From a virus, in the IMG/VR virus record IMGVR_UViG_3300036944_000273, positions 1-64,000 of that record: a stretch of 64,000 bases of DNA; one strand, 5' to 3'. Positions 12,852-35,852 of this stretch are shown in pieces. Every line of letters starts with the position of its first letter. Within the stretch, counting starts at the first letter, position 1. Position numbers and translations under genes: made by a program. The notes beneath the pieces are model-generated. The model was not told where the DNA came from, did not search any database, and saw nothing but the letters and a program-made list of their open reading frames with translations.

Positions 12852-15800
12852 ATGGCTGAGTTACAAAGGAACTTCCTACAGGGTATAATGAACAAGGATT
12901 TAGATCCTCACTTTTTACCCGATGGACAATATCGTGATGCATTAAATATTATCGTTGGAGACTCTGATGGGCAATACGTTGCTATCGAAGGATCTAACAA
13001 TGGTGCTGCACAAAACTATCTAGGAAATACCTTAATGAACTCGGCATTAGGTTTGACTAATGCAAAATGCATTGGGTCATTAGCCTATGACGCTTCCAAC
13101 CTTATTTATTGGTTAGTTGCTGCAGATAATGCAGATGCTATTTATGAATACAATGAGGCATTAGATTTAACTACAATTGTATTAAAAGCCACAAAAGCTA
13201 CACCTACTACACCGTCATTGTTGAATTTCAATAAGACGTTTTACGTAACAGGTATTAATTATATCAATGGTTTATTATTCTGGACGGATAACTATAATCC
13301 TCCAAGAAGAATTAATATTGAGCGTGCAAAAAACTATGGTGTTGATAATTTTACTGAAGATGACATCAGTGTTATTCTAGCACCACCATTAGATGCCCCA
13401 GCTATTGAATTATCCAATACAGGAGATTCGAACAATTTAGAAGATAAATTTCTTTACTTTGCGTATCGCTATAAATATATTGATAATGAGTATAGTGCTT
13501 TGTCTCCATTTTCTCCGGTAGCTTTTTTTCCAAAGCAATTTGCTTATGACTATGGTGTGTCTGAGAACATATCCATGACAAATTATTTTAATACAGTTAC
13601 TTTGACTTATGACAGAGGTGGCGATAATGTTATTGAAGTTCAGCTCGTTTATAAAGACACAAGAAGTCTAAATGCATATATTATAGATAATATTCAAACA
13701 AGAACTTTATCTTCTTCTCAATCTCAAACATATCAATTTAAAAACAATAAAGTTTATTCAATACTTGATGCAGATCAAGTAAATAGACTTTTTGATAATG
13801 TGCCATTAAAAGCTAAGTCACAAGAATTAATTGGTAGCCGTTTAATTTATGGTAACTATACACAGTTTTTTAATTTGGTCAATTGTATTGGTGAGCCAAT
13901 AAATCCTGTGTTTAATTTATCATTAACTGATGAAATTATATCAGATAATATTCCAAAGCCTACATTTAAGAGTAATAGAGATTACGAAATTGGTTTAGTG
14001 TATCTAGATGATTATGGAAGAAGTACGACAGTCGTTATACCTGAAGGCGATAATACTACTGATCTTACAAATACCATTTTTATTCCAGCAGAAAATGCCA
14101 ATGTAGCTAATAACATTCGTGTTACAATAGACAAGAATTTTGAGCCACCTTGTTTTGCTACATATTATCGTTTTTATATAAAACAAAATAAGCAGGATTA
14201 CTATAACGTATTTCCATTGACTTATTTTACAGAAGGTCAATTTAAATGGTTCCTAATTAACCAAGCTGATGTAGATAAGATATCAGTTGGTTCTTATGTT
14301 TATTTAAAGAATTCATCTAATGTATCAAAAGATGTTCAATTTAAAATATTAGATATTGAAAGTAAGTCGGCTAACTTTTTAGATAATGATAATATACAAC
14401 CTGCTGGCGTATATTTTAAAGTAAAGATATCAAGCAGTGTATTGCCAGATGTATTTACTTATTATGGATATGGCTCTAGAACAGGATCAACAGATCCAGT
14501 AACAGGTGATTTTCAGGTAGCCGAAGAAACAATATTTTACGGTGTAGGTCTAAATAACTTAGAGACATCAAATGGGAATATTTATTCTACAACAATTCCT
14601 TCAGGTAAACCAAATGTAGATGCAAGATTTTATGTAGAGATAAATGGATCTGGAACTCCGGATACATACAGATACTACGTTATGTTTGGCGGTAGTGGAA
14701 AGAAATTAGTTGCTTCGGGGATAAATATTGTTGCTGGAGTTGATGCTGTATTGACATATACGGGTCCAGTCGAATCTTTGACAATATATGGTAATTATAC
14801 AGTAACAATATCTTGTACGGTTAGATTTGATACAAGTACAGGACACACTACAGGTGACTATTGGGTAGTTAATTGTCGTGCTTCATTTGGCACATTTACA
14901 GGACCAATTAATATATTTGGTGGAATAGCAATACTTAGCACATCTACTTGGGCTGCTGTATATGTTACTACACAAAGTTGGACTCTTAGTTCTTTGACTA
15001 GTAGTGTTCGTCCTGTTTACCCTGGAGCTATTTTAAAATTTGCAGTTCAATATGGCTCAACAGGAACTAAATTAGAAAAACAATTTATATCTAGTGCTTA
15101 TTACGCAAATATTGAAGAATGGTTTATTGAGGATAATGCATATATCAATTTTAGCATTTTAGATAATGGTAGTAAGGATGTAAACTTTAGAAGAATACAA
15201 AATCTTCCAGTAAATACTTCTTCTCAGACAGGTACTCAAGGTGGTTCAATATCTGGTGATAGTTTAGTTTATCCAATGGCAATGTTTATTGGACCTGATT
15301 TTAATACTACAGCACCAGATTATTTCTTTGCTTCTTTAAATGTAGTTCAACAATCAATTTCAACTGTGTTTGAAACTGTTCCTGTTGATTTTAATCAAGA
15401 TGTTTATTACGAGCTATCGGATACTTTTGCTATTATAGATGGAGTTCATACAGGTAATTATCAAAATCAAATATTACCTGATCCTGATGTAATACCTCCA
15501 GTAACAGGACAGTCTGCTATTGTTGATTTAAATACATTTACACAGAATTCAAACTTCAATGCTTTTGCATGGGGTAATAATGTCGAAAGCTATAGAATTA
15601 GAGACGACTATAACGCAGCTACAATGGAGTTTAGCCCTAGAGCTAACTCTACTATCGAAGGATATGAACAGCAAACTCTTGTTCAAGCTTTAACATATAG
15701 TGGTGTTTACCAACAAACAACTGCATTAAATAGACTCAATGAGTTTAACTTATCACTTGGTAACTTTAAATACTTAGATAGATTCTTTGGATCTATTCAA

Positions 15801-18743
15801 AAGTTATATGCAAGAGATACTGACTTAGTTGTATTCCAAGAGAATAAAATATCTAAGGTATTATATGGTAAAAACTTATTAAGCGATTCTACAGGAGGAG
15901 GTACAATTGCTTCTATTCCTGAAGTACTTGGTACGCAGATTGCCTACTTAGGTGAATATGGGATTAGTAATAATCCTGAGAGCTTTGCTATATGGGGTAA
16001 TGATTTATTCTTTACTGATACTAGAAGAGCAGCAGTCTTAAAACTTGCTGAGAACGGATTGTTTGAGATATCATCTGATGGTATGAAGAACTGGTTTAAA
16101 GCAAACTTGGATAATAATACTCAAAAACTTGGAATATTTGATCCATACTTTGAGCATTATGTTTTATCTAACAATGATGTTTCTGTAAACTATTGTGTAT
16201 TTGATGTGAATGAGCAAGATGTTGATTTTGCTAAAGAAGCAAAAACAAATGTATATGCATTTACGGTAGATTCAAATAATGAATGGTATATCACAGTGCC
16301 TACTAATGATTGGTTAACATTAAGTACATTATATGGTAATGATACGACATTAATTTATTATAGTGCCACTGCTAATACAGGTAACATTCGTAACCTAACA
16401 GTTACAGTTCAAGGATGTGGTGGAACAAGAAATATTATATTTAATCAGGCTAGTGGAGTAACTACCACTACAACTACAACCACATCTGGACCTACCACTA
16501 CAACTACAACCACCACTGGTGGACCAACTACAACTACAACGACTACTACACAGATACCTGTATGGTATAGATTAATATCTTGTATTAATGGAGATATAGT
16601 TAACTCCATTAGCTATCCTGTAGATTCATTCTCAATTGGAGATATTGTTGAATTTGGTGGAGCTTATTTTACAGTTGATTTACAATTATTTTCTAATCCA
16701 GGTGGTCCGTTAATACCAATCACATCAACAGTATTTACAAGTTGTCCTCCTCCTACTACAACAACTACAACAACCACACATGCACCGTATGTGTTAGAAG
16801 TTGCTCCTTGTGGAGGTGGGACTAATTACTTTATTACACTTGCTAGTGGGTTAAGTTATCCTGTTGGATTTGCTTTGGTATTACAAAAGACAGGTGTGCC
16901 TGCTTTCCCAGGTAATATTTGTTATGAAGTGTTAAATGCTGACTCTCCTACTACACCTGATTATTTAGCTGTAAATGTAGTTGGCGAATCATTATCTTGT
17001 GCAAGTTGTGTTCCACCGACTACAACCACTACAACTACAACTACGTTACCGCCAGTTTGGTATCAAATGACCGCATGTTCTAATGGAGATACTGTTAATT
17101 CACAACAATATACTTTAGGCTCATTTTCAGTTGGACAAATTGTTGAATTTGGTGGAGCTTACTTTACTATTGTTTCTGAATTATATGCAAATCCTGGTGG
17201 ATCTCAAATACCAATTACTTTAACAGGGTTAACTAGTTGTCCCGCAACAACTACTACTACCACAACTACTACTCATGCACCTTACGTATTGGAAGTTGCA
17301 CCTTGTGGAGGTGGTACAAACTATTTCATTACATTGTCTAGCGGACTAAGTTATCCTGTAGGATTTGCATTGGTTCTTGAGAAGACAGGTGTTCCTGCAT
17401 TCCCGGGCAATATTTGTTATGAAGTGTTAAATGCTGACTCTGCTGCCACACCTGATTACTTGGCAGTTAATGTTGTAAGTCAATCATTGTCGTGTGCCAG
17501 TTGTGTACCTGCTACTACAACTACAACTACTACGACTACCTTAGCTCCTGTTTGGTATAGAACTACTTCTTGTGCTGACGGGTCTACAGTATATACAACA
17601 CAGCGTACAATTGGAACATTTGCAATAAATGACCGATTGACTTTTGGTGGGGCATTCTTTGTGGTTGCACAAGAGTTAACTACTAATCCAGGCGGCTCTC
17701 AAATTGAAATGACAGGTACTGGATTAACAGGGTGTCCTGCAACTACAACGACCACAACTACTACTACTCTGCCTCCAATGTCGTTTACTTATTCGACTTC
17801 TTGTGCTGGCGGAGAAGGAACTGGAGTTATAACTATTAATAGTATATCAGGCGGTACAGGAACAGGATACCAATACAGTATTCAGCCTACTCCTGGGACA
17901 TGGTTTAACTATCCTGCAACTAATCAATTGACGGGCTTAGGAAACGGAACGTATACTGTTGCGGCTAGAGATAGTGTTGGTAATGGGACAAGTACACCTG
18001 GTATATCTATATCTTGTATAACTCCTACGACTACTACAACGACATTAGCTCCTACTACTACGACTACAACTTGTACTCCAAATGGTACTTTATTATCTAC
18101 GTTCTGTTCAGGGTTTGATTTGATTGGGGTTTATGCTAATGGTTCTTGTGGTACTTATAACTCAGTTATTCAGTTTAACTCACCTAGCTGTGGATATGTA
18201 ACTCCTACAACAACTACTACTTGTACGCCAAATGGTACATTGTTATCAACTTATTGTTCAGGTGTTAACTTGGTTGGAGTTTATGCAAATGGTTCTTGTG
18301 GAACTTTTGATTCGATTATAGAATACAATTCTCCAAGTTGTGGATATGTGCCACCAACAACTACAACAACTTGTACTCCAAGTGGTACTTTATTATCTAC
18401 ATTCTGCTCAGGATTTGATTTGATTGGAGTATATGCTAACGGAAGTTGTGGTACTTACAATTCACCAATAGAGTTTAATTCGCCAAGTTGTGGATATGTA
18501 GCACCAACAACAACCACAGCTGCACCTACTACTACTACTACTACCGTTCCTCCTGCTGCATGTTATACTTATAATTGGGTTTGTGATAATGGCTTTGGAG
18601 CACCTTGCGATTTAAGTTGGACAAATTGCGATGGTAGTCCTGGTAGTGATTTTGTATCAGATGGTTCAGGAGGATCTGTATGTGCCCAAGTTGATACCTT
18701 TGGTATAGGAAATGGTTCTTGGACTCAAGGAGGAAGTTGCTAA
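12852..18743 (+). CDS. Giant tail-hub/adhesin protein: stabilisation part, BACON, SprB repeat, poly-Thr-linked modules
   Basis: The protein has 1963 aa. Residues 1-1115 resemble a tail hub or stabilisation protein; the start (GIMNKDLDPHFLPDGQYRDALN) is the form seen in P22 gp10-like proteins. Residues 1116-1203 form a BACON-type domain (NEWYITVPTNDWLTLS, GGTRNIIFNQAS). From 1204 on, poly-Thr linkers of 5-10 residues join modules: three A (VWYR..SC), two nearly identical B (VLEVAPCGGG), one SprB-like repeat (about 1644-1721), three nearly identical Cys-rich D (about 1740-1883) and a unique Cys-rich end. The modules carry paired Cys, suggesting disulfides. It probably projects from the tail and binds surface glycans. 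Two glycosyltransferases follow it. Confidence 0.85.
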   Translation: MAELQRNFLQGIMNKDLDPHFLPDGQYRDALNIIVGDSDGQYVAIEGSNNGAAQNYLGNTLMNSALGLTNAKCIGSLAYDASNLIYWLVAADNADAIYEYNEALDLTTIVLKATKATPTTPSLLNFNKTFYVTGINYINGLLFWTDNYNPPRRINIERAKNYGVDNFTEDDISVILAPPLDAPAIELSNTGDSNNLEDKFLYFAYRYKYIDNEYSALSPFSPVAFFPKQFAYDYGVSENISMTNYFNTVTLTYDRGGDNVIEVQLVYKDTRSLNAYIIDNIQTRTLSSSQSQTYQFKNNKVYSILDADQVNRLFDNVPLKAKSQELIGSRLIYGNYTQFFNLVNCIGEPINPVFNLSLTDEIISDNIPKPTFKSNRDYEIGLVYLDDYGRSTTVVIPEGDNTTDLTNTIFIPAENANVANNIRVTIDKNFEPPCFATYYRFYIKQNKQDYYNVFPLTYFTEGQFKWFLINQADVDKISVGSYVYLKNSSNVSKDVQFKILDIESKSANFLDNDNIQPAGVYFKVKISSSVLPDVFTYYGYGSRTGSTDPVTGDFQVAEETIFYGVGLNNLETSNGNIYSTTIPSGKPNVDARFYVEINGSGTPDTYRYYVMFGGSGKKLVASGINIVAGVDAVLTYTGPVESLTIYGNYTVTISCTVRFDTSTGHTTGDYWVVNCRASFGTFTGPINIFGGIAILSTSTWAAVYVTTQSWTLSSLTSSVRPVYPGAILKFAVQYGSTGTKLEKQFISSAYYANIEEWFIEDNAYINFSILDNGSKDVNFRRIQNLPVNTSSQTGTQGGSISGDSLVYPMAMFIGPDFNTTAPDYFFASLNVVQQSISTVFETVPVDFNQDVYYELSDTFAIIDGVHTGNYQNQILPDPDVIPPVTGQSAIVDLNTFTQNSNFNAFAWGNNVESYRIRDDYNAATMEFSPRANSTIEGYEQQTLVQALTYSGVYQQTTALNRLNEFNLSLGNFKYLDRFFGSIQKLYARDTDLVVFQENKISKVLYGKNLLSDSTGGGTIASIPEVLGTQIAYLGEYGISNNPESFAIWGNDLFFTDTRRAAVLKLAENGLFEISSDGMKNWFKANLDNNTQKLGIFDPYFEHYVLSNNDVSVNYCVFDVNEQDVDFAKEAKTNVYAFTVDSNNEWYITVPTNDWLTLSTLYGNDTTLIYYSATANTGNIRNLTVTVQGCGGTRNIIFNQASGVTTTTTTTTSGPTTTTTTTTGGPTTTTTTTTQIPVWYRLISCINGDIVNSISYPVDSFSIGDIVEFGGAYFTVDLQLFSNPGGPLIPITSTVFTSCPPPTTTTTTTTHAPYVLEVAPCGGGTNYFITLASGLSYPVGFALVLQKTGVPAFPGNICYEVLNADSPTTPDYLAVNVVGESLSCASCVPPTTTTTTTTTLPPVWYQMTACSNGDTVNSQQYTLGSFSVGQIVEFGGAYFTIVSELYANPGGSQIPITLTGLTSCPATTTTTTTTTHAPYVLEVAPCGGGTNYFITLSSGLSYPVGFALVLEKTGVPAFPGNICYEVLNADSAATPDYLAVNVVSQSLSCASCVPATTTTTTTTTLAPVWYRTTSCADGSTVYTTQRTIGTFAINDRLTFGGAFFVVAQELTTNPGGSQIEMTGTGLTGCPATTTTTTTTTLPPMSFTYSTSCAGGEGTGVITINSISGGTGTGYQYSIQPTPGTWFNYPATNQLTGLGNGTYTVAARDSVGNGTSTPGISISCITPTTTTTTLAPTTTTTTCTPNGTLLSTFCSGFDLIGVYANGSCGTYNSVIQFNSPSCGYVTPTTTTTCTPNGTLLSTYCSGVNLVGVYANGSCGTFDSIIEYNSPSCGYVPPTTTTTCTPSGTLLSTFCSGFDLIGVYANGSCGTYNSPIEFNSPSCGYVAPTTTTAAPTTTTTTVPPAACYTYNWVCDNGFGAPCDLSWTNCDGSPGSDFVSDGSGGSVCAQVDTFGIGNGSWTQGGSC
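16458..18545 (+). repeat. Repeated ACN-triplet (poly-Thr) tracts separating duplicated modules
   Basis: At least ten runs of five or more ACN codons occur, for example near 16461, 16493, 16522, 16756, 17018, 17246, 17513, 17741, 18028 and 18527. Between them two B modules (about 16785-17010 and 17275-17510) and three D modules (about 18072-18500) are near-copies. The repeats are coding and in frame. Confidence 0.9.
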
Positions 18744-18761
18744 AAAATAAAATAAAATAAA

Positions 18762-19694
18762 ATGAATCTAAGATTTGTATCTGCCCAACCTGCCATAAAG
18801 TATTACACGTGGCAGGTTGAGACTATGCTTAACAATTTTGCTGAGATGGGAATCAATCTCAACAATGTTGATGTTGTCTGCTGTAAGGAAGACTCAACAG
18901 TTCCAGAAGACTGGTCTAAACTTGCTAACAGATATCCTGCAAGATTTTTCTTTTATGAAGATACCCGTGAAACTAAAGGGTATATTTCATCAATCAGGCC
19001 CAATATATTGAAGCAACATTGGACTGCTCATCCTGAGTTAGAGCAAGAAGCAATTTTTTATCATGATTGCGATATTGTATTTACTCGTCCAATAAATTGG
19101 ATTTACAATTACGTTGAAGATAATGAGTGGTATGGATCTGATACACGTTGGTATATTGGACATGATTATATTATATCAAAAGGTGAAGATGTATTAGATG
19201 CAATGTGTGAAATTGCTAATATCAATAAATCGATTGTTAAAGAGAATGAATTGAATTCTATTGGTGCTCAATACCTAATGAAGGGATTAACATATGATTT
19301 TTGGAATAACGTAGAACACATTTCAGAAAAATTATTTGTTGATATAACCAATTTAAATAATCAAAAAAAGATACAAGACCCTAAGCATCATGAGTTACAA
19401 ATATGGTGTGCGGATATGTGGGCTGTTCTTTGGGAAGGATGGAAGAGAGGATACAAAACACACTGCGAAGATGATTTTCAATTTTGTTGGGCTACTACTC
19501 AAGAGTCTGATTGGTTTAAGTTTAATATATTTCATAATGCTGGAGTAGTCTCTTCTAAAGAAGGATTATTTTATAAAGGCGAATATGCAAATGACCTGCC
19601 GTATAATAAACCATTAAATATAAAAGAAAATACAGCAAGTTGGCACTATTGGAATGAAATACAAAAGACAGCTAAAAAAAGTTGCTTAATATGA
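18762..19694 (+). CDS. Glycosyltransferase-like protein (GT-A, DxD)
   Basis: The protein has 310 aa. IFYHDCDIVFTRP near 105-117 is a DxD-type nucleotide-sugar site following a Rossmann-like N-terminal half, and WYGSDTRWYIG follows it. This fits GT-A glycosyltransferases that move a sugar from a nucleotide donor. It lies 18 bases after the giant tail gene and overlaps the next glycosyltransferase by ATGA. The likely target is the phage's own poly-Thr tail protein or a host glycan. The exact family is not determined. Confidence 0.65.
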   Translation: MNLRFVSAQPAIKYYTWQVETMLNNFAEMGINLNNVDVVCCKEDSTVPEDWSKLANRYPARFFFYEDTRETKGYISSIRPNILKQHWTAHPELEQEAIFYHDCDIVFTRPINWIYNYVEDNEWYGSDTRWYIGHDYIISKGEDVLDAMCEIANINKSIVKENELNSIGAQYLMKGLTYDFWNNVEHISEKLFVDITNLNNQKKIQDPKHHELQIWCADMWAVLWEGWKRGYKTHCEDDFQFCWATTQESDWFKFNIFHNAGVVSSKEGLFYKGEYANDLPYNKPLNIKENTASWHYWNEIQKTAKKSCLI

Positions 19695-20485
19695 ATAAGG
19701 TAAGTTTTGTATGCACAACCTTTAGAAGATTCACATGCGTAAAAAGAATATTAGCTCAGTTTGATGCACAGACATATCCTAACAAGGAGTTAATTATATT
19801 TAATACTGATGAAGAGTATCCTTATGTATTGGCTGAGGAAAGGGATGATGTTATAATAGTAAACAATGGTATTGATTACCAAACTGGTTTACCATATACT
19901 AATAGAGGATATATTTGCAGAGATGCTATTACACATGCTACAGGTTATTACTTTATGTTGGCGGATGACGATGATATTTATTTGCCTTGGCATTTGCAAC
20001 AAGCAGTAGAAGGAATTGAAGAGTTAGGAACAGATGCTTGGAAGCCAGAGAAGTCATTCTTTGCTACGTCTCATAAATTAGAGCTTGCTATGAATATTAT
20101 GGAAGCTTCAGTAATTGTAAAGATGGATAGAATAAGAGAGATTGGATTTAGATCTGACTTAACTGGATACGAAGGTTTAAGTTGGTATACTAAACTAAGA
20201 GATGAAGGCCATATAGATGAGCATAATAAAAAATACATTCCATCTTATTGCTTTAATTGGTCTGATCCAATAGAAGTAGCTGGACATAAGCAAAGTGGCG
20301 ATATTAATAATCCTAATAATTTTGAAGAACACAAAAAGAAAAGTTTAGATGTGGCTGATAAGCCTCTTGTTTTAATACACAGAAACGAATTATTTAATAT
20401 TTACGATAATTATTATAAATTTATATTTAACAATATAGAATTATTTGACAAAGAGTTACTTGAAAAGTATATTTTATTAAAATGA
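19691..20485 (+). CDS. Family 2 glycosyltransferase
   Basis: The protein has 264 aa. The N-terminus, VSFVCTTFRRFTCVKRIL then PNKELIIFNTDE, is the classic GT2 donor-binding fold. FMLADDDDIYLPWHL near 94-108 carries the DxD metal site, and a conserved Trp lies in GLSWYTKLRDEG. The ATG at 19691 is chosen because it makes an ATGA overlap with the upstream gene, so the two are coupled. It is placed in the tail cluster, which is unusual for a host-range or DNA-modification enzyme and suggests virion glycosylation. Confidence 0.8.
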   Translation: MNKVSFVCTTFRRFTCVKRILAQFDAQTYPNKELIIFNTDEEYPYVLAEERDDVIIVNNGIDYQTGLPYTNRGYICRDAITHATGYYFMLADDDDIYLPWHLQQAVEGIEELGTDAWKPEKSFFATSHKLELAMNIMEASVIVKMDRIREIGFRSDLTGYEGLSWYTKLRDEGHIDEHNKKYIPSYCFNWSDPIEVAGHKQSGDINNPNNFEEHKKKSLDVADKPLVLIHRNELFNIYDNYYKFIFNNIELFDKELLEKYILLK

Positions 20486-20507: not shown

Positions 20508-21233
20508 ATGGCTAACTACACAATTACATATTCTCCGAAAGATAATGGATGGACTTCGTACCATTCTTATTATCCGGATTGGATGGTTACAATGAATAAC
20601 TCTCTTTATACATTTAAGGGAGGAAATTTGTATAAGCATTATAGTAATGAAACACGTAATAGTTATTATGGAGTTTTATATCCATCTACAATAACTACTA
20701 TATTTAATAACGAGCCTTCTCAAACTAAGCAATTTAAAACTATTGCTACTAACTCAACTACTGCCTGGGAAACAGCTGTGCTATCTGATCAAGGTGAGGG
20801 CTATATTAATTCTGATTACTATGCATTAAAAGAAGGTACATGGTACGCTTATATCAGAAGAAATCCTGATGATAACAGTTTGGCTATGATTTCAGCTCAA
20901 GGCGTAGGTAATGTTACAGCTTACGCATCTAACGTACTTACATTTGCATTTAATATTGGTGATATTGTCAGTGATGGCGATAGTTTATATATGTTAAATG
21001 GAGCTAATATTCAGTTTTGCGGTGTTATAACAGCTCACACAGATAATACAATAACTATTAATAGAACAGGAGCAATTCCAATTAATGGCAGCTTTATTCT
21101 TTATCTTAAGAGCAGCGTTGCTGAGTCAACTCCAACAAGAGGAACATACCTTGAGGTGCAGTTTACTAATAATGATACAGAGTATACCGAAATGTACATG
21201 ACTTCATCTGAGGTATTCAAATCATATTCTTAA
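20508..21233 (+). CDS. Tail structural protein
   Basis: The protein has 241 aa, all beta-type and rich in Tyr, Thr, Ser and Asn. It starts with DNGWTSYHSYYPDWMVTMNN and YTFKGGNLYKH, a pattern that recalls tail-tube or stabilisation proteins of podoviruses. It has no signal peptide or enzyme motif. It is flanked by two promoter boxes and lies between the glycosyltransferases and the GNAT gene. The exact structural role is not known. Confidence 0.65.
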   Translation: MANYTITYSPKDNGWTSYHSYYPDWMVTMNNSLYTFKGGNLYKHYSNETRNSYYGVLYPSTITTIFNNEPSQTKQFKTIATNSTTAWETAVLSDQGEGYINSDYYALKEGTWYAYIRRNPDDNSLAMISAQGVGNVTAYASNVLTFAFNIGDIVSDGDSLYMLNGANIQFCGVITAHTDNTITINRTGAIPINGSFILYLKSSVAESTPTRGTYLEVQFTNNDTEYTEMYMTSSEVFKSYS

Positions 21234-21239
21234 TATAAC

Positions 21240-21247
21240 TATCTTTG
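21240..21247 (+). promoter_or_regulatory. -7 box TATCTTTG 3 bases before ATG
   Basis: The sequence matches TAnnTTTG. With only CAA between the box and the ATG at 21251, the transcript should be leaderless or start inside the gene. Confidence 0.5.
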
Positions 21248-21250
21248 CAA

Positions 21251-21658
21251 ATGAAATTTAATATTAGGTTGCTTAACGACAGCGACTATGATAATACAAT
21301 AGCTGGATGGTGGAAAGATTGGGGGGGGCAAGCACCGCCAAAAGATTCATTACCATTAGATGGTACCGGTGGATTTATGGTGTCAAAGGGTTATGTAGAT
21401 ATTTGTGCAGGATTTGCATACTTTACAAACTCTGGAATTGCCTTTTGTGAATTTGTAGTGTCCAACTTTAATTATAGAGAAGAAGATAGAAAACAAGCGA
21501 TTGAAACTCTTATAAATACTATTAGCGAAGCTAGTAAAAATGCAGGATACAAATATATGTGGGTGTCTTCATTTAATAAAAATTTAGTTAAGAGATACGA
21601 GGCTTGTGGTTATATTAAAACGCAAGAAGATTGCGTAGAAATGATTAAAAAACTATAA
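21251..21658 (+). CDS. GNAT-type acetyltransferase with G8 tract
   Basis: The protein has 135 aa. It shows the GNAT layout: IRLLNDSDYDN start, CAGFAYFTNS and AFCEFVVSNF strands, REEDRKQAIETLI helix, and SSFNKNLVKRYEACGY end. It would transfer an acyl group from acyl-CoA; the substrate is unknown. The ATG at 21251 is preferred over a TTG six bases upstream. Eight Gs in a row (21321-21328) lie in the WGGQ codons, so a one-base slip would break the gene after 25 residues. GNAT genes are often found among tail genes in phages. Confidence 0.7.
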   Translation: MKFNIRLLNDSDYDNTIAGWWKDWGGQAPPKDSLPLDGTGGFMVSKGYVDICAGFAYFTNSGIAFCEFVVSNFNYREEDRKQAIETLINTISEASKNAGYKYMWVSSFNKNLVKRYEACGYIKTQEDCVEMIKKL

Positions 21659-23985: not shown

Positions 23986-26900
23986 ATGTCAGATCAAATA
24001 CCTCAATTACCAGTACCTTCAGCCGAAGAAATTAAAAAGTTTAAAGCTAAAGTGCCATCGGTAGGGGTTTCAGGTGGAACGGGTTTACCTATTCCATCAT
24101 CCGAGGATATAAAAAAATTCAAGGCACCTGTAGTTGAAAAAAAAAAGCCTATGGCTTCTCCTTCAGTTTTGGAGAAACCAGCTGCTTCATCGGTTGCCGG
24201 ATTACGTCCAATGGCACCTTTATCGGTATCTACTTCAACTAAAAAGCCTGAGCAATTAGTTGCACCAACACCTGTCGCTAAACCAGTTCAAGCACCCACA
24301 CAAAACGTGAGTGTGACTGGCAGCCAAGGCAAGCTTTTAATTCCTGATCCAATCCAAAAGGTGCCAGCTGTTAAAGAAACAGTTACATCTTTTAAGAAAG
24401 TACCTGTATTTAAATCAGATAAAGACTTAGCTTTGAATCCAGAGCTAATGCTTAAGGCTATCTTTAAAAATGAGCAGGGTACACTAGGCAAGACGACAAG
24501 CGTAAAAGCTTCAGGCGGTATGCGTAACACGGCATCTGGTACATATCAGATGACTGATGAAACCAAGAGAGACGTATACAATAGAAACAAAGAATTTCAA
24601 AACCAATTCGGTAATTATAATTCATTCTTAAAAGAGTTTAACAAGAACCCTTCATTGGAATTTGAGGCTGCGTTGAGCCACATGACTGACTTGGTTAAGC
24701 AGTACGGCAAGTATGCTATGGCTGCTTGGTACTCACCTAGCCATGCTGCTCAAGCGGCAAATGGTAATGTGCGTGCACTAAATACTGTACCAAGAAAAGA
24801 TGCTGGAAATAAAATGACCGTTAAGGCATATTATGACAATGCAATCAATGAGTACAAAAGATTATCCAAAGGCTTTAAAGGAGAGAAAGACTTTGTTAAA
24901 GTTCCTGTAAAAACAGAAGTTATCAAACAACCTGCGGTGAACGTGCCTTCTCTTGAGAAGTTTAACGTGTTAAACCCTAACTGGTATGGTGGGCCTGTAA
25001 CTAATGAAGCAAAGCCTGCTGTTGCACCTAAGAAAGTTGGGGCAATCGAAGATATCAATAACAGATTCTTGTCTTCTGCTTCTAATCTTGCTAGTGGTAT
25101 TGCTGGCTTGCCTAATGCTGCTAACAAAGCAGGGTTAATGATGACTGCCAAACTTCTTGGCATTGACGATGAGTATAATGCTCTACCTGTTCAAGCAAAA
25201 AAAGAAGTTGACGCAGTCGTGTCAAATATTGCACAAAAGGGGGGCGTTCCCTCAGGAGTTGTTTCTAGCCAAGTACAAGATTATTTTATTAGAAAGAGCG
25301 ATGAGTTTCTTGAGAATACAAATAAGTCTGATAAATATATTAATGAAAGATTTGGGGATTTCTTTAAAGCACCATCTGTAGATAAAGCTACTGATTTGTT
25401 TCTTGAGATTCCTAGAGGTTTTGCTGGTAGCTTGCCGTACATGATAAACCCATTACTTGGGGCTATCAGTGCTGGTAGCGAGCAGTACAATAAAGATATA
25501 AAAGAAGCAGATGGCAAGTTAGGTTGGGGGCAATTAGTTAACGCTGGTGTTACTGGTGTCAGCGAATATTATATTGAGAAAATTACAAAGGGTATTTTAA
25601 ACCGTTCAGTTGCAAGTGCTATTGGTGTCCCAAAAGTTGCTAAAGAATTAGCTGATGGATTTGTTAAGTCTGTGTTGAAAGACGTTGGAATGGAGTCAGC
25701 CGGTGAAGGATTAACTCAATTGATTCAGTCAGTGAGTAATGATATCACAAAGGGCAACGAGATTGACTGGGTAAAGACTGCTAATGAAACACTCGATGCA
25801 GCTATAACTGGTGCTGGTATTGCTGGCGGCATGAGAACAACTGGTGCTGGTATTGGATACCTAGCCAAGAAAGTTATGCCTCCATCTGAAAAGAATGAGA
25901 TTGATCGTAACACTAGAGCTATCATGGACCTCAATAGCAAAAAAGGTCCTGACAATTCACCTGAGGTGAATGCTGTTATCGATAGCAGAGTAAAAGAATT
26001 AGACGATGTCAATAAGAATATTATCAATACTAACATTGATAAAGTTAAGTCTATGTCAGACGATCAACTTAAAGAGATCGTAAACATCGATAAAGGTATT
26101 AGTGATATTTATACACAGCGTGATGCTGTTGTTTCTAATGAAAATCTTAACGATGAAGAAAAACAATCATTGTTAGATTATTTAAAATCCAGAGCTACAA
26201 AATTAAACGAACAAAAAGATGCCATTCAAAAGCAAACAACAAGTGAAGTTCCTATTCAGCCAGAAGCCGGAGCTGGCGTCCAAGTGGCGGAAGGAGAATC
26301 CCAAGCAAAACCTCAAGTCGCTGCCAAAGAAGGTCAAGAAGTAGTAGACATTACAGCCAGTATACCTAAGCAAGATTTGCCTAAGGTGATGGACTTGGTT
26401 GGCAAAATTGAGAAAGGCGAGCAAGCGTCTTCTCCTGAAGACTTGCAGACACAGCAGAACTATGCCAAGGAAGTGGAAGCACTTCTAGCTAAACGTGCTG
26501 CTGATGTTAAAGCTGTGGAGTATAGCTTTGATGTTAATACTCCTACTAAATTTAACGAATCAGAAATGCCTGAGGTGTCAGTTGATAACATCGACTGGGA
26601 AGCAAGCGGTATGGGTAATGTGTATGATGCAATCGACTCATATGGTGGCATCAATGATATCACAGTTGTTGACGTTCGTGGCAAGAATGCAGATGGATTG
26701 TATGAGGCAAAAGTTCGCGTTAAAGGACAAGATGTGTCTCGCGAAGGTGTTGTTTTACTTAAGGATCCGAACGCTCAACAGAAGCCACGTGTGGCTCGCA
26801 AAAAGAACGTATCGCCTGAGTTCTTGGCAGTAGAAAAAGTATTGTCAGACAATGGCGTGTATCCTTCATTTGATAACGTAGAAGAAATTGTTAAGATTAC

Positions 26901-29900
26901 TAAAGGTAAGGCTGGCAACATTACTCAGCAAGACGTTCAAGATGTAGTTAAGGTATATAATAAGAAAGCAAAAGCAATTGCTGATGCATTTAATAAACAA
27001 AAGCCAAATGAAAATATACAAGCTAAAAAGCCTAGAGCCGATGTCGCTGCCGAGGAAACTACGCAGGGGACACAACCTGAAGCTGGAGCAACTGAGCAGC
27101 CTGCACAAGCTATTAGTAAAAGGCAAGAAATCAAAAGCTCTCTCGAAAACCTTAAAGATGTCGGCCTCCTAAGGTCAGCTATAACTGGCAAGAAAGATAT
27201 ATCTCAAGGAGAGATAGATTCTCAAATGGCACTAACAGATGCCATGGCTAATGTATGGAGAGAGACAACTGGCCGTGATGACTTCTATGAAAACTTCTTT
27301 AATGACGTTAGTCAAGGAGACATAGACAGTATTATGGAGAAGGGTGGCGTATTGTTCCAAAACATAGAGCTACCACAACGTCCACTTACTCGTGTTTCGT
27401 TAGGCGTGTTTGACTTGCTTGAGTTTAAGAAGATGGAGGGTCAAGAGGTATCTATTAATTCAGTTAAAGACTTAGCTAGAACAAGAGGCAAGCAAATCGA
27501 GAAAGATTTAATGCAGACTGTTCTTGACTACGATAAATATAAGGAAGCTAAAAAGATTTCATACGACGAGTTTAAGAGCGACGTAGAGATGCAAGTAATG
27601 AAGCTTGAGAAGATTGTAACTTCTTCTTATGCTTCATATGGTGCTGACAATCTTGGAGATGATGGTGTATATGGTGATGCAAATACTATTATATACAATA
27701 GTCCAATAGATCATGGTGAGTATGGCCACTTTAGAGGAGACTTTAAATATAGTGGTATTAAAAAAAATATAAGCGATTTTGATAATACTGAATGGGAAAT
27801 AAAACAAATCCCAGGAACTGATCAATATGTAGCTGTTGATAAGTCAATGCCTGATAATGTTTCTCAAGATCAATTATCAAACTATATTGGTACAGCAGGG
27901 AATAAGGAGTCTGTTGAAAGATGGGTGAGTCAACGTAACTTATGGCAAATGACAAATGAGCAGGCACGTCAAGGAGACGTGAACGTAGGCTTATTTGGTC
28001 ATACACGTGTTTGGTATGACGAAGGCAATCCATATTACTTAGCTGAACTTCAAAGTGATTACTTCCAAAAGAACGACCCAAATGATTTGTATGCTAGTCA
28101 GGTAGATAGAGAAGAAGGAATAGATTATGCGTATGAAAAATATAATAAAGAACATCGTCCTGAAGTTTTAAAAGAAATAAAAAAGGCATTAAATGTAAAA
28201 ATAGAAATTGAAAATAGGGGTAAAGGTGAAGAAAAGTATTCTTGGGCAAAAGCATATGTATACAAGGATAATGGCGATAAATTAATAGAATCTCCAGTAT
28301 ATGAGCAATTGAGAGCTGATGGAGGTAGTATGGATAACGAAGATTGGGATGAATTTTTACTTAATGAAGTTGGTGGTACTTTGTTATTGCAACGGCCATT
28401 TAACAGCGAAAAAACCAAAAAAGAGATTGAGGAATTATTAAATAATGATCCAGAATCGTTGCGTACTATTGGATATAGATATAAAAGTTTAGATAAAACT
28501 TATACGGAAGCTAAATATGAATTAATTCAACAATACAGAAACGAGTACACTAAAAACGAAATAGAAAAAATTAAGAACTCTGAGAAGGGCGTATCAATGC
28601 TTAAGCAATTTGTGGCATCTCAGAAAGTTCATGAGCTTAGATTACTTCGTGAGTCATTCCGTAACGCTGCACAAGAAGGAGCTGAGACTTTACGTTTCCC
28701 TACACCTTTTACACTTGCTGTAATTGAAGGTTATGTGAATAAGCCAGGAGAAAATGGAGCTCCGTATGAAATTGTTTCTGGGAATAGCGACAGATTATAC
28801 CAAGGCGACATCATTGATTATGGTGGGACTGAGATGGTTGTTGTGGGTCAAGATGGGCTTAGGATAATGGTAGCACCTAGAGATGAAGTGCAGATATATG
28901 ACTACTATGATTATGTAAACAGCGAAGTAGAATATTTTTTAGATGAAACTTTATCTTATTTAAGAAGAGATTTTAATGATGTTAATAATATAACAGAATC
29001 AGATATTGAGAATTTTGATTTTGAAAATTTAGATTGGCAAGCAAGTGACACTCAAGATATATTATTAGCTGCTATTAATGATTCAGAGACAGGAATTATA
29101 TCTTTAAAAGATGTAGAAGAAAAAATTGAAGATGCAATTAGAAGCAGTTTTGATAATTTATCTGTTGGTGATTTATTTATGGGAGATGAAATATATTCAG
29201 ATGGTGATCAAACATATTACGTTATAGAAAGAAGAAACCAAGTAGAGACTTTTTATCAGCCAGATGAATATGATGACACTACTGATCCTGATCTATACGA
29301 AGCTAATCTAGGCGATGCACAAAAAACAGTTGTCAATAAGTATAAGGAGCTTAATAAGATATTTAAAAAAATGCGTCCCGATGCTGAGGTTATTACCGAT
29401 GACAACGGCATGCAATGGCTTGAGACTAAACTTACTCCTGAGGATGCCAACAACCCTCTTATTGCGTTCCAAGAAGAAGGCGGTAATATTAAAGGTGCTG
29501 TTGACTTCTCGAATGATAATAAGGCATCTGTGTACATGTTCGATGGTGCAGACATCACAACATTGGCTCACGAAATGTCAGGCCACTTGGGCCGTAGATT
29601 CTTAGAGCAACTGTCAAGTGTAGACGAAGACTTTGCTAAAGACTATGAGGCGGCAAAAGAATGGGCGGGCGTTAGAGATAATCAATGGACAATTGCTGCA
29701 GAAGAGAAATGGGCTCGTGGATTTGAGAAATACTTAAGAGATGGCAAGGCTCCAACAAAAGCCTTGAAGTCTGTGTTTGATAATCTGCGTGATTGGTTGA
29801 AGAATATCTATAAGTATATCAAAGGTAGTAGCATCGACATAGAGTTAACTCCTCAGATAACCAAAGTATTTGACAACTTGTTAGGAGCTCGTAGCGAAGA

Positions 29901-32900
29901 CGTAGGCATTAAAGAACTACCTGGCTATGATCGAATGATGGGTGAGGTAGAAGGCATTGTCGATAAGTCATTTAAGCGTGGCGTTTCTTACAATCAAACT
30001 TTAGAAAATGCTCTTAGTTATCTATCTACATCAAAAGTGTATGAGGATGCAACAGACATCCAGCGTGAGGCAATGGTGCGTGAGATTCGTAAGATGTTTA
30101 AGCAGAAAGAAAAGAAAGCTCCGACTGTACAAAAGATCTTAGGCCAAGAGCCAACATTGACAACTGTTGTTATTGACGAAGCAAAAGAAATAAACAAAAG
30201 ACTCAAGGCTCTTGATGCTGCGGAGACAGCAGGAAGAAAGAAGGGATACAAAGAAGGAACAAAGGAATCAGAAGATGCAAAGAAAGATATCATTGATATC
30301 GTCAGATCAATGAAGGTTAATAACAAGATTTCTGGTTCACAGTTTAAGGCTATTGTTAATGCACTTAAAGGTAACCTCCTAAATCCTGTAATCCGTAAGC
30401 GTGTTGAAGAGCGTATTGCAAAGATTATTAATCGGGCAAACTATGCTGATCAATTAGAGCGTGCCAATAAACTTAGCAAAGCAATTAAAAAAGCTTCTAA
30501 GTCTAATACATTGCCAGCTAACATAGCTAAGATGGCTAGAAACTTTGGTAAGATTAAGCCAAATTCTGTGCCAAATATTGAAGAGTATATGGACATGGCA
30601 ACTTTGGTTTATGACTCTATTGGTAAGCCTATGCGTAGCATTGCATCAGAAGATATGATCAATGAATACACAGAACTTAGATTGCAAGAAGCTAGAGATG
30701 CAAAAAATGATGTCTTGGCAGAGCAATATAAGGCACTTGTTGATGGTGGTATTTTACCTTCAGGTATGCCATTAAAAGAAATCCAAGATTATATTTTAAG
30801 TGTTGAGCAAAAGAAAGCACAAGAAATAAGCAAGGAAAAAGAAAAAGAAATGCGTGCCAACCTAAAGGCAGTATTTGAAGCTTTATCTGACATATCCAAT
30901 ACAATTGTTACAGAAGGTATAAATCCATTAACAGGGGAGGAAATAGAGGTTAGTGCTGAAGATAAGAAGATGATACAAGAGTTCACTAATATGGACTTGG
31001 ATAAACTATCAATTCCATCTGCTTACCGTGCTCAAGAAGCACTAATGAACTACGTTATCAATGGTAAAAAGTTTGGCATGAGATCAATCTTGGCTAAGTA
31101 CCAAGGACAAGAAAATGTTAAGATTGCTGTTGATAAAGGGTTGAAAGCTGCTGATTTTAGATGGGCAGTAGGTGGTAGCTGGTGGGGTTCACGCAAGTGG
31201 GCTAAAGAAGTTGAGTCAATACCAGGATTATTTACTTGGTTATTTAGAGGTAGAAATCGTGGTGGCGAAATGATGAAGCTTATGGGACTTGATGAATTCA
31301 TGGCTGGTGCTGCCGAAGGAAAGCTTAAGCGGATTGAGGCTGAGAATGAATACATTGCTAAGTTCTTAAATAAGAAGCCTAACGGCAAGCGTTTTAATAA
31401 CATCAACAATACATATGAGAGATTAGTGTATGCTTATTTATCTCGTACGGTTGATGGAACTCCAGAGCAAAAGCAAGACGAGTTTGATCGACGCAAGAGA
31501 ATTCTTTTACAAAACGTGCAAGCAATGTATCAATCAAGAAATAAAGAATTGATTGAAGAAGGTAAAGTATTGGAGAAAGAATTAAATAAAGTCAAGAATG
31601 CAAAGACTTCATCTGAGATGCAAGGTAAGTTTGATAAGATAAATGAGGAGGCTGTACAGTTTATCTCAAATAAATTTGATCAAAACTTTGACTTTGTTGA
31701 AGATGTAGCAGAAGGGGTATACAACTTGATACTAAACAAAGACGAGCTATATACTCCTGACATGTTTAGAAGTATTGTAGAGAAAGATGTCAATGTAGCT
31801 GAAGCTCAGGAGACTGTCGACTTGCCTTTTGATTTATTAAACAAGAAGCCTGCAGGCACAATGATGGAGAACAAACGTATCCAGAATTTACCAGGCTACG
31901 ACGTTGAGAATAAAGATGCATCTAATGTAGAGAAGATTCTTAGATTAGACTTTGATGCTAGTTCATTTAATGCACTAGAAAAGGCACTTGTTGACGCAAA
32001 TACAGCGGAGGCAGTACAGAAGTATAGTGCATTTGTTAATTCAAAAGACTTTATTAAGTTATTTGATAACATTAAGGACCAGCAATTATTTAAGGAGATT
32101 GTAAACTTCTATATAAATAACGAGCGTGGTAAGATTGGTTATAAGTCTGATTGGAAAGCTGTACAGAACTTTACAAACAGAATTAAATCTTTATCTACAT
32201 ATCGTGCACTAGGATCACTTACTGCAATTGTTAAGCAGTCTGCATCAGCAGCAATTAACACGGCAATTAACTTATCTAATGATCCATATGCAATGAAGCA
32301 AGTTGCTAATGCGATGTTCTTTAATTCAGACATCCAAGATTTTATTAGCAGAAATAGAAGTGAGATTAATCTACGTGGTGCGGAGTCAACAGCCGACATT
32401 AAATCTGCTGAAAAATTAATCCGTGATTCAAAATATCAGACAGTTAATGATGTATTAGATACTGTTGATAAACTAGGTAGATTTCAAATGAAGTCTTTGG
32501 CAGCAGGTGACGTGCCTTTGGCTCGTGCTTCTTGGTTTGGTTATTATATACACGCTCTTAAAAAAGAAGGCAAGCCTTATAATAATATAGACTGGGCTAC
32601 AGAAAATATTGACAAAGATGCTCTTGCTTATGCTAACAGAGAGGTGTCTCTTAATCAAAATGCTAGTATGCCATCTACTATGGGTAGAGCTTTTGCTAGT
32701 AAGAACCCGGCTACTAAACTTATTATGGCTTATGTATTCCCATACACAAGTTTCTTGTTTAATGCTAAGAGTAGATTGAAGACTGACATTACGGTGTTAA
32801 CTAGTAAGTTGGCTACTGCGGAAGACAAGCAAGCTGCAGGCCGATCAATGGTTGCGACATTAGCTGAGTTACCTGCATATATAATGATGCAAACAGCTAT

Positions 32901-33432
32901 CAACTATGGACTAGTTACATTAGCTAATATGTTCCTTGGATACGAAGAAGATGAGGAAGATGAGAAATTAAGATTAAAGAGATACTCTGAGTTGGCGGTA
33001 ACAAGAATCATAACAGACTTATTATCACCGACTCCAAACGTAGGTGACGTTGCTACTGTTGCTGCATTCAATGCATTACTAACAAAGATGCAAGAGGAAC
33101 CAGAAATGGATCAGGAAGATAAGATGGATATGTTTAAGCTTTTTGAAAGCAAGCCAGACTCAATGGCTGGGGCAATGGCTGAGTTGTTATTGCAACCAAT
33201 TGCATCGACAGGTAGACGTGCTGCTGATATCTATACTACAATTGACATGGCTGTCGGAGACTATTATGTAACCGATACTGGCAAGGAGATAGAGTTTACA
33301 GAAGAAAATAAGAAGTTCTTAAAGATAGCTGCTACTATGCAAGTAATGGGTAGCTTGAACTTACTACCATCGGAAGCTGAGTCGCTGGCCAAGAAGATGG
33401 TCAAGACGATCGAAAAGAGTGCTAAGGAATAA
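23986..33432 (+). CDS. Giant polyvalent ejection protein (murein hydrolase, zincin-like, LPD-type domains)
   Basis: The protein has 3148 aa. The N-terminus has a duplicated LPxPSxExIKKFKAx motif, then Pro-rich linkers. About 145-305 is a lysozyme/transglycosylase-like domain (KNEQGT, SGGMRNTASGTYQM, AMAAWYSP). A helical part with hydrophobic stretches lies at about 355-620. About 1330-1600 has polyvalent-protein signatures (GHTRVWY, YYLAELQSD, EGAETLRFPTP). Near 1860 TLAHEMSGHLGRRF resembles the zincin domain of polyvalent proteins, with EEKWARGFEKYL downstream. The C-terminal 500 residues resemble the LPD38-type helical module. It is likely ejected with DNA, opening the cell wall and acting on host targets. 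An A10 run lies at about 24138-24147. Confidence 0.8.
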   Translation: MSDQIPQLPVPSAEEIKKFKAKVPSVGVSGGTGLPIPSSEDIKKFKAPVVEKKKPMASPSVLEKPAASSVAGLRPMAPLSVSTSTKKPEQLVAPTPVAKPVQAPTQNVSVTGSQGKLLIPDPIQKVPAVKETVTSFKKVPVFKSDKDLALNPELMLKAIFKNEQGTLGKTTSVKASGGMRNTASGTYQMTDETKRDVYNRNKEFQNQFGNYNSFLKEFNKNPSLEFEAALSHMTDLVKQYGKYAMAAWYSPSHAAQAANGNVRALNTVPRKDAGNKMTVKAYYDNAINEYKRLSKGFKGEKDFVKVPVKTEVIKQPAVNVPSLEKFNVLNPNWYGGPVTNEAKPAVAPKKVGAIEDINNRFLSSASNLASGIAGLPNAANKAGLMMTAKLLGIDDEYNALPVQAKKEVDAVVSNIAQKGGVPSGVVSSQVQDYFIRKSDEFLENTNKSDKYINERFGDFFKAPSVDKATDLFLEIPRGFAGSLPYMINPLLGAISAGSEQYNKDIKEADGKLGWGQLVNAGVTGVSEYYIEKITKGILNRSVASAIGVPKVAKELADGFVKSVLKDVGMESAGEGLTQLIQSVSNDITKGNEIDWVKTANETLDAAITGAGIAGGMRTTGAGIGYLAKKVMPPSEKNEIDRNTRAIMDLNSKKGPDNSPEVNAVIDSRVKELDDVNKNIINTNIDKVKSMSDDQLKEIVNIDKGISDIYTQRDAVVSNENLNDEEKQSLLDYLKSRATKLNEQKDAIQKQTTSEVPIQPEAGAGVQVAEGESQAKPQVAAKEGQEVVDITASIPKQDLPKVMDLVGKIEKGEQASSPEDLQTQQNYAKEVEALLAKRAADVKAVEYSFDVNTPTKFNESEMPEVSVDNIDWEASGMGNVYDAIDSYGGINDITVVDVRGKNADGLYEAKVRVKGQDVSREGVVLLKDPNAQQKPRVARKKNVSPEFLAVEKVLSDNGVYPSFDNVEEIVKITKGKAGNITQQDVQDVVKVYNKKAKAIADAFNKQKPNENIQAKKPRADVAAEETTQGTQPEAGATEQPAQAISKRQEIKSSLENLKDVGLLRSAITGKKDISQGEIDSQMALTDAMANVWRETTGRDDFYENFFNDVSQGDIDSIMEKGGVLFQNIELPQRPLTRVSLGVFDLLEFKKMEGQEVSINSVKDLARTRGKQIEKDLMQTVLDYDKYKEAKKISYDEFKSDVEMQVMKLEKIVTSSYASYGADNLGDDGVYGDANTIIYNSPIDHGEYGHFRGDFKYSGIKKNISDFDNTEWEIKQIPGTDQYVAVDKSMPDNVSQDQLSNYIGTAGNKESVERWVSQRNLWQMTNEQARQGDVNVGLFGHTRVWYDEGNPYYLAELQSDYFQKNDPNDLYASQVDREEGIDYAYEKYNKEHRPEVLKEIKKALNVKIEIENRGKGEEKYSWAKAYVYKDNGDKLIESPVYEQLRADGGSMDNEDWDEFLLNEVGGTLLLQRPFNSEKTKKEIEELLNNDPESLRTIGYRYKSLDKTYTEAKYELIQQYRNEYTKNEIEKIKNSEKGVSMLKQFVASQKVHELRLLRESFRNAAQEGAETLRFPTPFTLAVIEGYVNKPGENGAPYEIVSGNSDRLYQGDIIDYGGTEMVVVGQDGLRIMVAPRDEVQIYDYYDYVNSEVEYFLDETLSYLRRDFNDVNNITESDIENFDFENLDWQASDTQDILLAAINDSETGIISLKDVEEKIEDAIRSSFDNLSVGDLFMGDEIYSDGDQTYYVIERRNQVETFYQPDEYDDTTDPDLYEANLGDAQKTVVNKYKELNKIFKKMRPDAEVITDDNGMQWLETKLTPEDANNPLIAFQEEGGNIKGAVDFSNDNKASVYMFDGADITTLAHEMSGHLGRRFLEQLSSVDEDFAKDYEAAKEWAGVRDNQWTIAAEEKWARGFEKYLRDGKAPTKALKSVFDNLRDWLKNIYKYIKGSSIDIELTPQITKVFDNLLGARSEDVGIKELPGYDRMMGEVEGIVDKSFKRGVSYNQTLENALSYLSTSKVYEDATDIQREAMVREIRKMFKQKEKKAPTVQKILGQEPTLTTVVIDEAKEINKRLKALDAAETAGRKKGYKEGTKESEDAKKDIIDIVRSMKVNNKISGSQFKAIVNALKGNLLNPVIRKRVEERIAKIINRANYADQLERANKLSKAIKKASKSNTLPANIAKMARNFGKIKPNSVPNIEEYMDMATLVYDSIGKPMRSIASEDMINEYTELRLQEARDAKNDVLAEQYKALVDGGILPSGMPLKEIQDYILSVEQKKAQEISKEKEKEMRANLKAVFEALSDISNTIVTEGINPLTGEEIEVSAEDKKMIQEFTNMDLDKLSIPSAYRAQEALMNYVINGKKFGMRSILAKYQGQENVKIAVDKGLKAADFRWAVGGSWWGSRKWAKEVESIPGLFTWLFRGRNRGGEMMKLMGLDEFMAGAAEGKLKRIEAENEYIAKFLNKKPNGKRFNNINNTYERLVYAYLSRTVDGTPEQKQDEFDRRKRILLQNVQAMYQSRNKELIEEGKVLEKELNKVKNAKTSSEMQGKFDKINEEAVQFISNKFDQNFDFVEDVAEGVYNLILNKDELYTPDMFRSIVEKDVNVAEAQETVDLPFDLLNKKPAGTMMENKRIQNLPGYDVENKDASNVEKILRLDFDASSFNALEKALVDANTAEAVQKYSAFVNSKDFIKLFDNIKDQQLFKEIVNFYINNERGKIGYKSDWKAVQNFTNRIKSLSTYRALGSLTAIVKQSASAAINTAINLSNDPYAMKQVANAMFFNSDIQDFISRNRSEINLRGAESTADIKSAEKLIRDSKYQTVNDVLDTVDKLGRFQMKSLAAGDVPLARASWFGYYIHALKKEGKPYNNIDWATENIDKDALAYANREVSLNQNASMPSTMGRAFASKNPATKLIMAYVFPYTSFLFNAKSRLKTDITVLTSKLATAEDKQAAGRSMVATLAELPAYIMMQTAINYGLVTLANMFLGYEEDEEDEKLRLKRYSELAVTRIITDLLSPTPNVGDVATVAAFNALLTKMQEEPEMDQEDKMDMFKLFESKPDSMAGAMAELLLQPIASTGRRAADIYTTIDMAVGDYYVTDTGKEIEFTEENKKFLKIAATMQVMGSLNLLPSEAESLAKKMVKTIEKSAKE

Positions 33433-35648: not shown

Positions 35649-35659
35649 ATTTTTTTTTA

Positions 35660-35732
35660 ATCGAGTGCCCGATTCGAACGAGCATTACCCTCAGCCTCGA
35701 GGAGGGCGTGTTACCATTTACACCAACCCAAT
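35660..35732 (-). tRNA. tRNA-like sequence, 73 nt, odd anticodon loop
   Basis: The minus strand folds as acceptor ATTGGGT / ACTCGAT (with wobbles), D arm GTGT / ACAC, anticodon stem CCCTC / GAGGG, and T arm GCTCG-TTCGAAT-CGGGC. The anticodon loop has nine bases (CTCGAGGCT) instead of seven, so the isotype cannot be set; CGA and CTC are readings. No CCA is encoded. It lies 11 bases from the other tRNA-like sequence. Confidence 0.6.
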
Positions 35733-35852
35733 CAATAATTCTAGCGTTTCAATTATTGAGTCTACTGTAATATCGATAGAATGAATATCAAACTCAGCAC
35801 TCGACCCATTCTCATGAACCACATAAAAATAAATACTATTTCCTTTTTGCAT
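35718..35852 (-). CDS. Small hypothetical protein overlapping tRNA-like gene
   Basis: The protein has 44 aa (MQKGNSIYFYVVHENG... ending LIGLV). The ATG lies 17 bases inside the end of the upstream gene, typical for this cluster. The stop falls inside the 5' part of the tRNA-like sequence. The function is unknown. Confidence 0.5.
   Translation of the reverse strand: MQKGNSIYFYVVHENGSSAEFDIHSIDITVDSIIETLELLIGLV

Follow-up and report, generated by a model that had tools for sequence, protein, structure and literature searches.

We analysed a window of 64,000 bases, taken from a 64,937-base virus record (IMG/VR record IMGVR_UViG_3300036944_000273), in which the gene for a polythreonine-rich, crAss-like muzzle-type virion protein is followed by genes for two putative glycosyltransferases, here called GT1 and GT2. 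An earlier note on this DNA had proposed that the phage uses the pair to glycosylate its own protein. Comparative genomics strongly supports the proposal that GT1, a member of PHROG 4417, acts on the polythreonine (poly-Thr) of the phage's own virion proteins, an expectation that held repeatedly in unrelated phages. We consider it highly likely that GT1 O-glycosylates virion poly-Thr in the cytoplasm and that GT2 extends or decorates the resulting glycan. More broadly, PHROG 4417 and a short poly-Thr tract probably constitute a portable tag-and-enzyme system by which unrelated phages of two or more bacterial phyla glycosylate any virion protein that bears the tag, the downstream genes being exchangeable so that every phage has a virion glycan of its own.

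PHROG 4417 genes beside polythreonine tags

If GT1 acts on poly-Thr, then enzyme and tag should be found together in phages that are not related. Homologs of GT1 adjoin threonine-tagged structural proteins in crAss-like podoviruses, in jumbo phages and in siphoviruses and myoviruses of Bacillota. A search of IMG/VR with the GT1 of the window yielded 62 non-identical loci with enough upstream sequence; a poly-Thr open reading frame (ORF) was present in 51, and in 41 it ended no more than 150 nucleotides (nt) from GT1. Most of the misses were short fragments of one clade, longer members of which have a small poly-Thr ORF several kilobases away. In named bacterial genomes, where the loci are prophages, poly-Thr-tagged structural proteins were located within 8 kb of GT1 at 34 of 35 loci, and 31 of these 34 had a tagged protein ending within 150 nt of it. 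Among 16 named phages (infecting Enterococcus, Lactobacillus, Lactococcus, Staphylococcus, Arcanobacterium and Chryseobacterium), strict poly-Thr was found in 14; the C-terminal tails of the remaining two are rich in Thr (TTVAPTTVKP; TETQTQTQ). The first of these tails occurs in Lactobacillus phages 521B and SAC12B and the second in LP65; in 521B (L004:5431-5973) and LP65 (L096:5058-5940) the divergent tails are on proteins encoded just upstream of GT1.

The tag of the Bacillota phages takes the form of a C-terminal Thr6-10 tail on the capsid protein, the tail-tube protein or both. Phages infecting Enterococcus, Lactobacillus, Lactococcus, Staphylococcus and Arcanobacterium have the tag as a C-terminal tail. 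Examples are TTTTTTTTTTHHD on the major structural protein and TTTTTTTTTHHD on the capsid protein of Lactococcus phage 1706. Single-linkage clustering sorts the proteins tagged near GT1 into about 35 sequence families, indicating that the shared element is the tag and not the protein. Tags on different proteins of the same phage share their last residues in 22 of 44 pairs (3.7 expected; 0 of 10,000 shuffles), as if they had been copied from one another or were recognised together. The genes behind GT1 in other phages encode GT2-family (glycosyltransferase family 2), Gly_transf_sug and GT25 enzymes, FkbM and other methyltransferases, radical SAM proteins and an epimerase.

The association was also examined in 161 genomes of one bacterial family, which were picked regardless of either feature except for the centre genome. 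Intact PHROG 4417 was found at 12 loci in 11 of these genomes. (ACN)7 codon runs are uncommon in the family, occurring in only 30 of the 161 genomes, and such a run was located within 3 kb upstream of PHROG 4417 and on the same strand at 10 of the 12 loci; at the remaining two loci the capsid and tail-tube proteins bear tags of six Thr.

Tag and enzyme are lost together as well. Homologs of an enterococcal capsid protein, used as the query of a scan, comprised 57 with both the Thr tail and GT1 (counting the query phage and a locus that is interrupted by the contig start), two with the tail and a contig end directly behind, and 12 with neither, the last being 55-90% identical. The correlation between capsid tail and GT1 (57:0 versus 0:12) gave a Fisher p of 1e-13, uncorrected for relatedness. 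Similarly, relatives of the muzzle protein whose loci have no GT1 lack the poly-Thr linkers. In one such relative (L323), with 63% identity across the muzzle, repeated domains of the same kind are connected by ordinary short linkers, and PHROG 4417 had no match anywhere in its 63,986-bp record. In the GT1-negative loci of at least 8 kb from these scans, almost every poly-Thr ORF lies right against a contig end, where a GT1 would go unseen.

The proteins, their predicted folds, the gene order and the way in which tag and enzyme are present or lost together are matters of observation. As read from sequence, the idea that the enzyme acts on the poly-Thr of its own phage is supported by adjacency, by joint presence and absence, by the tags at all 12 of 12 family loci, and by the enzyme fusions and nearest folds described below.

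The candidate acceptor and the two enzymes

The ORF encoding the 1963-residue protein (Table 1) matched PHROG 14478, 'virion structural protein', with an E value of 7.8e-184 and the best stretch at residues 369-1179. Its crAss-like muzzle-type N-terminal part is followed by small domains on poly-Thr linkers, with domains and runs interleaved from residue 1204. Counting runs of at least four threonines, eight of the 14 are 8-9 Thr long, and the Thr content is 21.4% in residues 1184-1963 versus 8.5% before. The 100 threonines in the runs are encoded by 48 ACT, 33 ACA, 12 ACC and 7 ACG codons, and only 23 of 86 neighbouring codons are identical. Because the codons are mixed, the runs look selected as a peptide feature, and the codon mix rules against a simple DNA microsatellite. 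No other ORF of the window has Thr runs like these.

The 14 runs and the 18-nt gap to GT1 bear out the described order of a poly-Thr protein followed by two glycosyltransferases, and the matches of neighbouring ORFs likewise confirm that the enzymes lie amid structural genes. What had been called a tail protein is indeed a virion structural protein, and its identity can be refined: the pair sits between the muzzle ORF and an ORF (20508-21233) for the crAss muzzle C-terminal domain (PF25729), which makes the proposed acceptor a crAss-like muzzle-type protein.

Table 1. Features in and around the putative glycosylation locus of the window
Feature	Coordinates	Strand	Basis
1963-aa virion protein, proposed glycan acceptor	12852..18743	+	PHROG 14478 and Thr runs
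14 poly-Thr runs, 4-9 Thr each, 100 Thr in total, mostly Pro/Ala-flanked	16461..18545	+	Codon/translation count
GT1, GT-A glycosyltransferase, proposed initiating poly-Thr O-glycosyltransferase	18762..19694	+	PHROG 4417, AF2 model, PDB folds
GT2, GT2-family GT-A enzyme with LADDDD motif, proposed glycan extender/decorator	19691..20485	+	PF00535, AF2 model, folds
crAss muzzle C-terminal domain, separate ORF	20508..21233	+	PF25729, E 9.1e-14
Small ORF, PHROG 17252 (unknown function)	21245..21658	+	phrog_17252, E 1.5e-38

GT1 has 310 residues and starts 18 nt past the stop codon of the poly-Thr ORF. It belongs to PHROG 4417, listed under 'unknown function', by a full-length profile match (E 2.2e-64; residues 4-303 on positions 2-291 of 293). 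A known Pfam or NCBIfam family was rejected, since there was no Pfam match at E <= 1 and no NCBIfam match, and a PDB sequence search with GT1 returned no glycosyltransferase among its matches. An AF2 model built from 65 diverse sequences reached a mean pLDDT (predicted local distance difference test) of 97.5. The predicted fold is GT-A, with an acidic DxD motif (D102-C-D104) whose two aspartates are invariant across the 65 sequences; H258, G261 and K272 are invariant too. The model gave 240 matches in the PDB at E <= 0.001, and among the top 50 listed nearly all were glycosyltransferases.

The nearest solved folds are UGGT, XXYLT1, LARGE1, alpha-1,3-galactosyltransferase and glycogenin, several of which (e.g. 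UGGT and glycogenin) are retaining enzymes that modify proteins. On the basis of its model, GT1 resembles retaining GT-A enzymes, including the protein-modifying UGGT and glycogenin. UGGT (GT24), glycogenin, XXYLT1 and LARGE1 (GT8-like) and the GT6 alpha-1,3-galactosyltransferase share with GT1 the GT-A fold and DxD motif, but TM-scores are about 0.4-0.5 and identities 8-14%. This likeness is in fold only, and GT1 was not placed in CAZy families GT8, GT24 or GT6. The invariant C-terminal H-x-x-G...K of GT1 recalls the GT8-type C-terminal metal-binding motif.

GT2 most likely begins at ATG 19691 and not at TTG 19682, giving a protein of 264 residues. This start creates a 4-nt ATGA overlap with the stop codon of GT1, so that describing the two genes as coupled was correct. 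GT2 matched PF00535 above the curated cut-off (E 5.6e-6; 26.8 bits versus 23.3), its AF2 model has a pLDDT of 86, and its fold matches (SpsA, WrtF, TarP and RmlT, the first three among the top ones) are of the type of Glycosyltransferase family 2, to which it belongs. The assignment of both enzymes to the GT-A type in the earlier note was therefore sound, for GT1 by predicted fold and invariant DxD and for GT2 by PF00535 and fold. In two relatives (L312 and L338) GT1 and GT2 are fused as one 584-residue protein, arguing that both work on the same product. GT2 is a well-supported partner of GT1; glycan extension is its proposed role.

Phage particles and their proteins are built in the cytoplasm, beyond the reach of secreted host glycosylation systems, so a sugar-bearing particle would need a cytoplasmic enzyme of the phage's own. 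We propose that GT1 would act as a cytoplasmic, metal-dependent GT-A enzyme that uses a host nucleotide-sugar to place a sugar on threonine hydroxyls within poly-Thr tracts of the phage's own virion proteins. The acceptor would here be the poly-Thr linkers of the muzzle-type protein encoded just upstream, and in Bacillota phages the C-terminal Thr tail of the capsid and tail-tube proteins. GT2 would then extend or decorate the first sugar, a place that other glycosyltransferases, methyltransferases or epimerases may take elsewhere. Because the genes behind GT1 vary, the final glycan should differ between phages, and the outcome would be virions with dense, phage-specific O-glycans, which may be likened to the serotypes of bacterial surface polysaccharides. 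O-glycans on the muzzle protein would stiffen and protect the linkers between its small domains, and those on capsid and tail tube would coat the surface. The reaction itself, which sugar is transferred, which enzyme acts first and what the phage gains are all inferred, as are the purposes named in the earlier note (stiff linkers, decoys, protection).

Exceptions and competing explanations

Several observations weigh against O-glycosylation of poly-Thr by GT1. GT1 was present in just 12 of 63 unselected viral contigs that have long Thr runs and 1 kb or more of downstream sequence, and a prophage tail-tube-like protein (L429:6094-6558) terminates in Thr8 although the 13 kb that were read contain no GT1. 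Thr runs of this kind imply that poly-Thr has other uses or is served by other enzymes. Conversely, one contig (L061, 7807-14471) keeps GT1 and has a tail ORF that stops where the poly-Thr of its sister begins; in the sister (L018:10001-16595) the tail ORF, which is likewise next to GT1, has a long poly-Thr domain at its end. One aquatic clade has its poly-Thr ORF several kilobases from GT1 and not adjacent to it, and a Mucilaginibacter genome (L420) contains GT1 without poly-Thr. Finally, loci of the same lineage are not independent and the p-values overstate the evidence; the case thus rests on the number of unrelated lineages and not on p-values.

Poly-Thr as a sufficient predictor of GT1 was rejected on the count of 12 in 63. 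The ORFs behind the other poly-Thr contigs of this set, judged by reading, showed no single common alternative enzyme. In two loci with a poly-Thr ORF and no GT1 (L197 and L208), a different GT2-like ORF lies, by reading, 12 nt behind and is possibly an alternative enzyme for the same job. The upstream ORFs of the aquatic clade (L019:478-888 and similar) encode 112-142 residues and end in TTTTTTEAP-type repeats. On the Mucilaginibacter oryzae chromosome (L420:5468-16692), a 566-residue GT1 homolog and a GT2 homolog (33% identical) are neighboured by a small GG-leader-like peptide, a LanC-like ORF and a C39-type ABC exporter, all named by reading the sequence. This looks like a ribosomal-peptide cluster and suggests a cellular use of the GT1/GT2 pair on a peptide.

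The Thr stretches could instead be plain flexible linkers and tails, with the glycosyltransferases modifying host surface glycans in receptor masking or seroconversion, and their linkage a product of chance or inheritance. Phage glycosyltransferases that alter serotype are known (PMC12619734), and the many viral contigs with poly-Thr and no GT1 fit such a scheme. We regard it as unlikely, because tag and enzyme come and go jointly in close relatives of the capsid and muzzle proteins, the tag stays constant while its partner protein changes between phages, and GT1 is found in structural gene blocks. Moreover, all 310 residues of GT1 form one confident predicted GT-A domain with no extra segment. 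A scan of the neighbouring ORFs for partners of host-serotype conversion enzymes, which would be a membrane anchor or flippase, gave no GtrA/GtrB-type match.

It is very unlikely that GT1 glycosylates virion proteins elsewhere than at the Thr runs, with the runs serving as a docking or recruitment sequence. The shared last residues of tags within one phage would fit a recognition element, but dense Thr hydroxyls are the obvious acceptor, and it is hydroxyl richness that stays while tract length and Ser/Pro admixture vary. Glycosylation of phage DNA to produce hypermodified bases, with the place in the structural operon accidental, is extremely improbable even though phage glycosyltransferases are well known to glucosylate DNA (PMC12619734): it leaves the location of GT1 behind poly-Thr tags in unrelated genomes unexplained, and the accessory genes that follow GT1 encode enzymes transferring sugars and methyl groups. 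Addition of sugar by GT1 to the poly-Thr itself is the explanation we prefer.

Relation to known systems and neighbouring features

Glycosylation of phage-particle proteins has been shown mainly in mycobacteriophages. According to articles that cite the study of Freeman et al. 2023 (PMC12363180, PMC12619734 and PMC11600133), mycobacteriophages Che8, Corndog and Myrna glycosylate their capsid and tail-tube proteins with glycosyltransferases of their own (PMC12363180), the glycans being at the C-termini (PMC12619734). The C-terminal Thr tags of Bacillota phages, read from sequence, are on the same two proteins. Che8 has tandem GT2, GT25 and methyltransferase domains, classes that are also encoded behind GT1. 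In contrast, poly-Thr tails are absent from the capsid and tail-tube proteins of Che8, and the GT1 profile scored below zero against Che8 gp108-gp110, so homology of GT1 to the mycobacteriophage glycosyltransferases was rejected for Che8. The phage collection searched contained no mycobacteriophage relative of GT1. By analogy, the system described here would work like mycobacteriophage virion glycosylation, with a non-homologous enzyme, an explicit acceptor tag and a wide spread as its new features.

A second parallel is found in serine-rich repeat adhesins, which are O-glycosylated in the cytoplasm by GtfA-GtfB and then by variable downstream glycosyltransferases. Both arrangements have a conserved initiating enzyme, a low-complexity Ser/Thr acceptor alongside and variable glycan-building genes behind. 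However, GtfA and GtfB are GT-B enzymes of cells, whereas GT1 is a phage-borne GT-A enzyme with a short virion poly-Thr as its candidate acceptor.

We found no report in the open-access literature linking poly-Thr or PHROG 4417 to virion glycosylation, an earlier mention being possible. If our proposal is correct, virion glycosylation would be a common feature that can be read from sequence: a capsid or tail protein that bears a Thr tail and adjoins a PHROG 4417 gene would predict a glycosylated virion, both in crAss-like phages and in the well-studied dairy, enterococcal and staphylococcal ones. PHROG 4417 would acquire a function, bacterial protein glycosylation would gain a simple acceptor tag, and the purpose of virion sugars (adsorption, protection or recognition) would become testable in laboratory phages.

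Turning to the remainder of the window, the small ORF at 21245-21658 had a marginal acetyltransferase match (phrog_1758, E 0.051). It is kept behind the muzzle C-terminal ORF in relatives (cluster C4) and is probably not specific to the glycan. A defence function was not backed, as PADLOC gave no match, and an Rfam scan of the window also returned no match. Behind the structural genes a single ORF of 3148 residues (23986-33432) probably encodes a giant virion or ejection protein. A GroEL-like chaperonin (515 residues) followed by a GroES-like protein (85 residues) was recognised by reading positions 52805-54609, and the window contains tRNA genes for Leu (gag; 35658-35733) and Gly (acc; 55693-55792).

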